Assembly (NCBI GenBank): GCA_014190675.1
Contig: BJGT01000002.1
Span: forward strand, 27,698 to 91,697
Direction: 5' to 3'
DNA: 64,000 bases
From: Comamonadaceae bacterium
GTDB taxonomy: Bacteria; Pseudomonadota; Gammaproteobacteria; Burkholderiales; Burkholderiaceae_C
Below the pieces are notes generated by a model, which did not search any database, was not told where the DNA came from, and saw nothing but the letters and a program-made list of their open reading frames with translations. Position numbers and translations under genes: made by a program. This document shows positions 26,874-30,666 of the stretch, piece after piece (positions within the stretch are counted from its first letter, which is position 1; every line of letters starts with the position of its first letter).

Positions 26874-28454
26874 ATGATCAAAACCATTCCCATCATCGAA
26901 GCCAAAATGACGCCGGCAGGGGCTGCGCCGTCACTGGGAAGCCCCAGCATCGAGGGTGACGGCATGGGTTGCCACGCTGGCGGCGAGAAGATGCTCGCAG
27001 CCGCCAAGGCCTCGGGCAAGTCAGAGGTGTTGGCGCAATACGCCAAAGACTACCCCCTTGACCCAGCCGCCGGACCCCATGACCAGCCGCAAAGTATGTG
27101 CCCGGCGTTTGGATCCTTGCGCGTGGGCCTGCGGATGCGCCGCACCTCCACTATTTTGTCGGGCTCGGCCTGTTGCGTCTATGGGCTGACCTTCACCTCG
27201 CATTTCTACGGTGCCAAACGTAGCGTGGGCTATGTGCCCTTCAACTCAGAGTCCCTGGTCACCGGCAAACTGTTTGAAGACATCCGTGAAGCCGTGCATC
27301 AGCAGGCCGACCCGGCCTTGTACGACGCCATCGTGATCATCAACCTGTGCGTGCCCACCGCCAGCGGTGTCCCGCTGCAGATACTGCCCAAAGAGATCAA
27401 CGGTGTTCGCATCATTGGCATCGACGTGCCAGGCTTTGGCGTCCCCACCCATGCCGAGGCCAAGGACGTGCTGGCAGGCGCCATGCTGAAATACGCCCGC
27501 ACCGAAGCCATGGCCGGGCCGGTGCAAGCGCCGCGGGGCGGGCGCTCTGACAAACCAACCATCACCCTGCTGGGTGAAATGTTCCCCGCCGATCCGGTCA
27601 TCATTGGTCGCATGCTCGAGCCCATGGGCCTGGCAGCTGGCCCCACCGTACCCACACGCGAATGGCGCGAGCTGTATGGCGCTCTGGATTGCGCCGCGGT
27701 AGCCGCCATTCACCCCTTTTACACCGCATCAATCCGCGAATTTGAGACCGCCGGACGGCCTATCGTCGGCTCGGCCCCGGTGGGGCACGACGGCACAGAA
27801 GCCTGGTTGCAGGCCATCGGGCAGGCTGCCCAAGTGCCACAGGCCCGCATCGATACCGTTAAAAATGCCATGCTGCCGGTCATTCGGGCGGCTTTGTCCA
27901 AGTCCCCGATCAAGGGCCGAATCACCCTGAGTGGCTACGAGGGCTCTGAGTTGTTGGTCGGGCGCTTGCTGGTTGAAAGCGGAGCCGATCTGCGTTATGT
28001 CGGCAGCGCCTGCGCCCGCTCTGCCTGGAGCGAGGCCGATTGCCAATGGCTGCAAGCCCATGGTGTGCGGGTGCAATACCGTGCCTCCCTGGAGCAGGAT
28101 CTTGCTGCCATGCATGAGTTCGAGCCCGACCTGGCAATTGGCACCACCCCTGTTGTTCAAGCGGCCAAAGAGCTGAGCATCCCGGGGCTGTATTTCACAA
28201 ACCTGATTTCGGCACGGCCACTGATGGGTCCGGCCGGCGCCGGTTCGCTCGCCACCGTGATCAATGCCGCCATGGGCAACAAGGCCCGCTTTGACACCAT
28301 GAAAGCCTTTTTTGGCCAAACCGGCGTTGGCCATGCCTCTGGCGTTTGGGAGAGCAGCAGCGGTTTGCCGGCTGACCGGCCCGACTTCAAAGCCGAGACC
28401 CGCCGGTTGCTCGCCAAGACCCTGAAAAAGCGTAAAGCCGAGGAAATGATCTGA
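26874..28454 (+). CDS. bchY: Chlorophyllide a reductase subunit BchY
   Basis: [49 protein letters not shown]; between bchX and bchZ. Confidence 0.96.
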
Positions 28455-29920
28455 TGCTGGTTCTTGACCATGATCGCGCGGGAGGCTACTGGGGCGCGGT
28501 GTACGTGTTCACCGCCATCAAGGGCCTGCAGGTGGTGATTGACGGCCCGGTGGGTTGCGAGAACCTGCCCGTGACCTCGGTGCTGCACTACACCGATGCC
28601 CTGCCGCCGCACGAACTGCCGATTGTGGTCACTGGTCTGGCCGAGGAGCAGCTCGGCCGCGAGGGCACCGAAGGCGCCATGCGCCGGGCACATGCCACGC
28701 TCGACCCCGATTTGCCAGCCGTAGTGGTTACCGGTTCGATCGCCGAGATGATTGGCGGCGGCGTGACTCCCGAGGGCACCAACCTGCTGCGCTTTTTGCC
28801 CCGAACCATCGACGAGGACCAGTGGCAATGCGCCAACCGCGCGATGTACTGGCTGTGGCAACAGTACGGCCTCAAACAGGTGCCAAAGCGCGAGCGCAAG
28901 CCAGAAGAAAAACCCCGCGTCAACATCATTGGCCCGAGCTACGGCACCTTCAATTCGCCCAGCGATCTGGCCGAAATCCGCCGCTTGGTGCAGGGTATTG
29001 GCGCTGAAGTCAATATGGTGTTCCCGCTGGGCAGCCACCTTGCAGACGTGTCGCGGCTGGTCGAGGCCGATGTGAATATCTGCATGTACCGCGAATTCGG
29101 TCGCATGCTGTGCGAGGTGCTGGAGCGTCCCTACCTGCAAGCGCCCATCGGACTGCACAGCACCACGAGCTTTCTGCGCAGCCTGGGCGAGTTGCTCAAT
29201 CTCGACCCCGAACCTTTTATCGAGCGTGAGAAACACAGCACGATCAAACCGATCTGGGATTTATGGCGCTCGGTCACCCAGGACTTTTTTGCCACTGCCA
29301 GCTTTGCAGTGGTGGCCAATGAGACCTACACCCGGGGCATTCGACATTTTCTTGAAGACGAAATGGGTATGCCCTGCAATTTCGCGGTGGCGCGGCGGGC
29401 CGGTGCCAAAACCGACAACGCCGAAGTACGCCGGCTGGTCAGCGAAAAAACACCGTTGGTGATGTACGGCAGCTACAACGAACGCATGTATCTGGCCGAG
29501 TGCGGCGGTGGCGGCATGATGAAGACCAGCTTTATTCCGGCATCCTTCCCCCTGCCCATCATCCGCCGGCACACCGGCACACCGTTCATGGGCTATGCCG
29601 GCGCAACCTACATCATCCAAGAATTTTGCAACGCACTGTTCGATGCCTTGTTTCATATTTTGCCGCTGGGCACCGAGCTCGACCGCATCGACGCGACGCT
29701 GAGCCGTGCCGCCTCTGACAAGCCCATGCCCTGGGGCCAAGAGGCACAGGACCTGCTGGAGCGTTTGATCGAGGCCGAGCCGGTGCTGGTGCGTATTTCG
29801 GCAGCAAAAAAATTGCGTGATTGTGCCGAGCGCGATGCACGTGAAGCCGGTCGCTCCAGTGTTGAAGTGGATCGGCTTTTTGAGTTGTTTGGGCAATCGA
29901 GAGCGGAAGTCGCTGCGTGA
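28454..29920 (+). CDS. bchZ: Chlorophyllide a reductase subunit BchZ
   Basis: [62 protein letters not shown]. Confidence 0.96.
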
Positions 29921-30067: not shown

Positions 30068-30211
30068 ATGGCTGAAAGTATGAACCCGTCGGGGCTAACC
30101 GACGCGGAATGCCAGGAATTTCACACGTACTACGTGCAGGGTTACCTGCTGTGGGGTGTGGGTGCGTTTGTTGCGCACAGCCTGGTGTGGATCTGGCGTC
30201 CCTGGTTTTAG
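30068..30211 (+). CDS. pufB: LH1 beta polypeptide PufB (47 aa)
   Basis: Not in ORF track; translated by eye: [47 protein letters not shown]; BChl-ligand His and WRPW(F) signature; SD GAGGTG. Confidence 0.95.
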
Positions 30212-30235
30212 CAACCCATTCACGGAGATAGTTTC

Positions 30236-30460
30236 ATGGCTTATTCGCACGCTCAATCGGACACGTCAATCCCCCAAAGCCATCTCGATGGGTTTGGTAC
30301 GATTTTCGTCGTGATCTTTTGTGTCTTCATGTTGTTGGCTGTCATCGGGCAACTGTTCTATATGAACTGGCGCACTTGGCTACCGGGGGCAGAGGGTACG
30401 GGATCCATGCTCGACAGCGTCAAGTCGGCCGTCTACACCGTGATATCTCAACTGAGTTAA
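30236..30460 (+). CDS. Uncharacterised 74-aa single-TM polypeptide between pufB and pufA; LH1-beta-like motif lacking ligand His
   Basis: MAYSHAQSDTSIPQSHLDGFGTIFVVIFCVFMLLAVIGQLFYMNWRTWLPGAEGTGSMLDSVKSAVYTVISQLS*; good SD (GGAGA); AVIGQLFYMNWRTWL aligns without gaps to [15 protein letters not shown] of PufB. Confidence 0.82.
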   Translation: MAYSHAQSDTSIPQSHLDGFGTIFVVIFCVFMLLAVIGQLFYMNWRTWLPGAEGTGSMLDSVKSAVYTVISQLS

Positions 30461-30474
30461 CTTAAGGAAAAACT

Positions 30475-30666
30475 ATGTGGCGTTATTGGCGAATTGTTGA
30501 TCCCCGCAAGGCGATCATTCTGACCGGACTGCTGATTGCATTTGTGTCGACGAGCATCCACCTGATTCACATCAGTGGCGATCGTTACAACATCAATACT
30601 TGGCACCCGGACACGGTTAAGGCTGCAAAAGCTGCACAAAATGCAGCTCTTCCGCCTGCAAAGTAA
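30475..30666 (+). CDS. pufA: LH1 alpha polypeptide PufA (63 aa)
   Basis: MWRYWRIVDPRKAIILTGLLIAFVSTSIHLIHISGDRYNINTW...; DPR motif and TM His at +20 from Asp as in LH1 alpha; SD AAGGA. Confidence 0.88.
   Translation: MWRYWRIVDPRKAIILTGLLIAFVSTSIHLIHISGDRYNINTWHPDTVKAAKAAQNAALPPAK

Follow-up and report, generated by a model that had tools for sequence, protein, structure and literature searches.

The 74-codon open reading frame that separates pufB from pufA in the window (the whole stretch of 64,000 nucleotides analyzed here, from a Comamonadaceae bacterium) encodes a protein that is homologous to the LH1 beta polypeptide over its full length, C-terminal tail included, and that is closest to the tailed betas. 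Judging from sequence comparisons, we tentatively propose that this protein, referred to below as ORF74, is a pigment-free (or at least His-free) beta-like subunit of the RC-LH1 complex or an assembly factor. The features of the locus are as follows:

28454..29920, + strand: bchZ, the neighbor 5' of pufB
30068..30211, + strand: pufB, LH1 beta, short form of 47 aa with the ligand His present
30224..30228, + strand: Shine-Dalgarno GGAGA of ORF74, 7 nt ahead of the ATG (sequence reading)
30236..30460, + strand: ORF74 / ORF2, a 74-aa protein with a single transmembrane (TM) segment, LH1 beta homologue (sequence, phmmer, alignment, profile)
30293..30367, + strand: TM segment of ORF74, residues 20-44 (alignment; AlphaFold helix 16-47)
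30350-30352, + strand: codon of Gln39, in place of the BChl-ligand His (alignment columns)
30368..30394, + strand: motif W45-R-x-W-L-P-G-A-E53, the strongest conservation in ORF74 (mean entropy 0.55 bits, 51 sequences)
30407..30457, + strand: C-terminal tail helix, residues 58-74, amphipathic, with V62, V66, Y67, T68 and S71 near-invariant across the family set
30475..30666, + strand: pufA, LH1 alpha, 63 aa
30792..33652, + strand: pufL, pufM and pufC (reaction centre L, M and tetrahaem cytochrome)

The operon order is bchZ, pufB, ORF74, pufA, pufL, pufM, pufC. The reading frame of ORF74 is intact over its 74 codons, from the ATG at 30236 to the TAA at 30458-30460. An earlier note on this DNA had described an in-frame 74-codon ORF with its own Shine-Dalgarno sequence between pufB and pufA, which holds, except that the spacing given there as about 8 nt measures 7 nt. 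Among public sequences, the ORF is matched most closely in a Rhodoferax sp. MAG (L029), where it is identical.

The same site between pufB and pufA is occupied by ORF2 in Rubrivivax gelatinosus and by ORF74 in Roseateles depolymerans, the latter, as its name indicates, of the same length. According to a 2025 paper, the Rubrivivax puf operon has two ORFs of unknown function, ORF1 preceding pufB and ORF2 preceding pufA (PMC12817894, citing Nagashima 1994). The window ORF is equated with these two by position, name and bacterial family, their sequences not having been compared. The independent solution and novelty suggested by the earlier note are thereby overtaken: the ORF had been recorded and named before, yet not as a characterized subunit. 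In Roseateles, ORF74 (RD2015_RS05155, between the pufB and pufA tags) is co-transcribed with pufBA, decreases to 2.34% in a sigma-factor mutant and is among the three most changed loci (PMC10037100). The co-location with LH1 in one operon, as seen in the earlier note, is supported. Our literature search found no functional study of ORF74 or ORF2; the original 1994 and 2002 reports are represented through PMC12817894 and PMC10037100. In the former, pufA2 of Gemmatimonas was concluded not to derive from ORF2, which was compared with PufA and PufA2 only and not with beta. New here are the beta homology including the tail, the pattern at the ligand position, the mutual exclusion of ORF74 and beta tails, and the link to genes at the pufQ position.

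A phmmer search of the PDB with the ORF74 protein retrieves LH1 beta chains (7xxf_B, E = 1.7e-9; 8z81_B, 3.6e-9). With a 41-row ORF74 profile, the best matches are tailed LH1 betas, namely 8z81_B (2.2e-16; ORF74 residues 10-72 to 8-69) and 7xxf_B (1e-14; residues 13-73 to 12-72), so that the profile alignment spans from before the TM segment to the end of the tail. HMM scores of tailed betas reach 41-62 bits, with z values of 18-24 against within-segment shuffles, and short beta scores lower. Comparison by hhalign gives 92.7 for tailed beta, 18.6 for PufA and 11.8 for PufX, against 10-13 for reversed controls. As the match to tailed beta lies well above the controls, ORF74 is a member of the LH1-beta superfamily. 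Together with the homologues at the same site in 51 puf regions of the family, these matches support the beta-like origin that the earlier note had suggested. Of the general models, PF00556 matches five of 20 members (best 4.4e-6) and NF040862 nine of 20 (best 4.9e-10), while the window protein itself is matched by neither. Its other Pfam matches (TRIQK etc.) are weak and under cut-off. No PDB chain found in our searches is ORF74 itself, nor was a Burkholderiales RC-LH1 recognized in the PDB set.

An origin from PufA, the comparison made in PMC12817894, is unsupported, its HMM score being at noise and its hhalign score the 18.6 given above. PufX resembles ORF74 as a small single-TM protein encoded with LH1, and the role suggested for ORF74 has also been likened to those of protein W and gamma. 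Nevertheless, the comparison with PufX yields similarity at noise (HMM z -0.7 and 0.9), and the pufX gene is located after pufM, where the window carries pufC instead.

A tail of about 25 aa had been thought absent from normal beta, but tailed LH1 betas of 73-75 aa are known from solved structures, and some members of the family itself have one as well (76 aa). Rhodopila globiformis beta (7xxf_B, 73 aa), for instance, matches the ORF74 profile over the full length including the tail and shares the WRxW motif and the one TM segment. Unlike such betas, ORF74 has lost the ligand His and the Pro, and it sits beside a short, normal beta. The distribution of the two forms was read from a sample of 401 genomes of the GTDB family, 65 of them with pufC, in which pufB to pufA is readable in 58 puf regions. 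An ORF74 homologue lies between pufB and pufA in 51 of these 58 complete regions; the spacing is at least 216 bp in 51 regions, and the homologue is present in all 51 gaps. All 51 have a short pufB of at most 49 aa. In six other family regions, as well as in G149, where the contig is split, pufB is tailed (76-aa type) and lies 12-15 bp from pufA, with no ORF74. Apart from marginal matches, a profile search of the tailed-beta genomes returned only pufB itself, with no convincing copy of ORF74 elsewhere. Tailed beta and ORF74 thus never co-occur within the sampled family. This exclusion may stem from very few events, or even from one, as a single clade is rejected neither for the tailed betas (p-AU 0.49) nor for the ORF74 carriers plus G116 (p-AU 0.44). 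Within the sample, only G116 combines a short pufB with the absence of ORF74. Since it is nested in the ORF74 clade (SH-aLRT 99%), the gene was probably lost or moved there, and ORF74 is either dispensable or replaced in G116 by an upstream gene.

If ORF74 is indeed a subunit or assembly factor, it would be made together with PufB and PufA, join RC-LH1 or aid its assembly, and take up the membrane position of a beta helix, with a short amphipathic helix on the WRxWLPGAE side, which would be periplasmic if ORF74 is oriented as beta is. This tail helix would supply the contact made by the beta C-terminal tails in lineages without ORF74. Membership of the complex, copy number, the partner of the tail (PufC, alpha C-termini or a neighboring beta) and the effect (on assembly, ring stability or quinone opening) are what we infer for such a protein. 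Lys and Arg are somewhat more common on the tail side of the TM segment (2.7 vs 1.6), which does not favor a periplasmic tail. The AlphaFold model has a mean pLDDT of 67.7, with low confidence beyond the TM helix and a tail that is helical at low confidence, and a fold search with this model gave no matches. The amphipathic character of the tail is nonetheless apparent from shuffle fractions of 0.01-0.04 in four examples.

The chief alternative, less likely but deserving serious attention, would make ORF74 the counterpart of PufQ in betaproteobacteria, i.e., a single-TM regulator that would bind ferrochelatase and steer porphyrin to bacteriochlorophyll, its gene having moved from upstream of pufB to the pufB-pufA gap. 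PufQ has been described as a ferrochelatase-binding regulator, with a variable N-terminus, one TM segment and a conserved C-terminus (PMC5725709), a pattern that ORF74 shares along with its size of about 74 aa, its location in the puf operon and a weak profile similarity. In Rhodobacterales, pufQ is located upstream of pufB, and genes at this position outside the family (G175, G268 and a 74-aa gene on a Thiodictyon plasmid) match the ORF74 profile. By hhalign, such pufQ-position genes from other class members, Thiodictyon and Methylobacterium score 71 with ORF74 (P 98%), 77 with tailed beta and 29 with annotated PufQ (P 70%); ORF74 and PufQ score 26 (P 59%) against 12.6 for the reversed control. 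PufQ has no direct match to beta (13-16), and the scores of PufA and PufX are close to noise. ORF74 links LH1 beta to the pufQ-position genes of other phototrophs; its tie to PufQ is weaker. Upstream of pufB, the ORF74 loci carry no TM gene, and no TM ORF was found in the bchZ-pufB gap of the window (~150 bp), while G116, without ORF74, carries a single-TM gene there.

A tree built from 69 small proteins, which is based on 74 columns, has long branches and cannot be rooted, places ORF74 as one clade (99/95) between the upstream genes plus PufQ (99/91) and the set of all betas (89/94). This intermediate position fits a PufQ counterpart. As the clade falls outside the family's own betas, the duplicated beta of the earlier note is not demonstrated, and ORF74 probably did not arise simply by recent copying of a pufB from within the family, although fast evolution could mimic the tree pattern.

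Against a PufQ counterpart, the Pfam PufQ model (PF05398) matches neither ORF74 nor the upstream genes tested, while true PufQ proteins score 60-137 bits; a class-wide search with it at E <= 1 returned nothing beyond noise. ORF74 is not located between bchZ and pufB as pufQ is. Furthermore, the tailed-beta members of the family have neither ORF74 nor an upstream gene, which would leave them without a PufQ function. A subunit or assembly factor is favored because ORF74 resembles tailed beta far more strongly than PufQ and because the two exclude each other. In a broader and rather doubtful scenario, ORF74 and the pufQ-position genes of Gammaproteobacteria and Methylobacterium would form one branch of the LH1-beta superfamily that includes PufQ. 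Ligand-less antenna subunits would have turned into regulators of assembly or biosynthesis, PufQ would be a former LH1 beta, and the Burkholderiaceae branch would have taken over the work of the beta tail.

Several upstream genes are worth recording individually. The Thiodictyon gene (L138:2460-2684; NZ_CP020372.1 38025-38249, Candidatus Thiodictyon syntrophicum) lies between bchZ and pufB; its product, a 74-aa 'hypothetical protein', is similar to ORF74 (32 bits) and has a PufQ-like ending. A 2022 genome survey lists Chromatiaceae as lacking pufQ (PMC8877833). Unannotated single-TM genes at the pufQ position are also present in other phototrophs (L210:2078-2326, L211 on the reverse strand, L212:2071-2361 and L139:2429-2785), and a Pfam PufQ scan did not recognize those of L210, L211 and L139. 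The upstream gene of G116 (L184) encodes 90 aa and clusters with the one from Methylobacterium (98/86) in the tree of small proteins.

The ORF74 segment AVIGQLFYMNWRTWL matches PufB without gaps, with Gln at the His position, Trp +6, Arg +7 and Trp +9 retained and Thr in place of Pro, as the earlier note had seen. Alignment columns over 51 ORF74 sequences show Gln at the ligand position in 36 and His in one; the others nearly always have Ala, Lys, Thr, Leu, Cys or Gly. W45 (Trp +6) is kept in 50 of the 51, R46 in 48 and W48 (Trp +9) in 46, while the Pro of WRPW (+8) occurs in only four. W45, P50, G51, E53, V62, V66 and S71 are each retained in 50 or 51. Mean entropy over the same sequences is lowest in WRxWLPGAE, followed by residues 61-73 (0.76 bits), the TM segment (1.87) and the N-terminus (2.83). 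As the motif and the tail are best conserved and the ligand position is not, selection is strongest on the tail side of the membrane and not on pigment ligation. Gln can in principle coordinate Mg. Loss of His, seen in 50 of 51 sequences, therefore does not by itself exclude pigment binding. It is nonetheless improbable that ORF74 is a minor antenna subunit that would bind BChl via Gln and tune the absorption of a few ring positions. The prevalence of Gln and the two retained Trp agree with such a role, but most of the other sequences have one of the six residues listed above, which implies that a ligand is not required there, and the Pro is rarely kept.

In a first sample of 151 genomes of the GTDB family, every genome matching ORF74 belongs to the 26 with reaction-centre genes; 25 of these matched, four of the matches being tailed pufB itself. 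A scan of named genomes gave 329 stretches, and the best 80 of these are nearly all labelled Burkholderiales-type, including Rhodoferax, Limnohabitans, Polaromonas, Curvibacter, Hydrogenophaga, Rubrivivax pictus and Piscinibacter. The homologues are exactly 74 aa long in 33 of 51 regions (range 72-76 aa), and none of the 51 has a frameshift. ORF74 is under purifying selection, with a median dN/dS of 0.17 over 42 pairs (three include tailed-beta loci, too few to shift the median near 1), compared to 0.11 for pufB, 0.13 for pufA and 0.04 for pufL. The survey of relatives and the dN/dS analysis that the earlier note had called for thus speak for a maintained gene. A translated but functionless relic of a tandem pufB duplication, which the site adjoining pufB and the low identity between genera might suggest, is very improbable given this dN/dS, the constant length and a tail conserved more than the TM segment.

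By report or among our matches, ORF74 occurs in Rubrivivax, Roseateles and freshwater phototrophs of the Limnohabitans/Rhodoferax type. If it is a subunit, the RC-LH1 of the whole group has an unrecognized component. If it is PufQ-like, a regulator thought missing from these bacteria would be present at a new site and PufQ would gain an origin. The exclusivity of tail and ORF74 also offers a way to test what tailed LH1 betas are for.

Some further observations concern the neighboring genes. In genomes G006, G012, G075, G764 and G742, pufC, the gene of the reaction-centre cytochrome, is matched more than once, and the second copies in G006, G012 and G075 have no further puf genes within the stretch examined. 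The pufB and pufA of the window (30068-30666) are divergent: its PufA scores under the Pfam and NCBIfam cut-offs, and the PufB of its lineage (L185, L189) forms a long, fully supported branch in the tree of small proteins. Alpha C-termini in contact with the cytochrome subunit have been reported to carry an [A/S]-[P/A]-[L/M/I]-P motif (PMC9640540), and the C-terminal end of the window PufA, NAALPPAK (30640-30663), contains a matching AALP.
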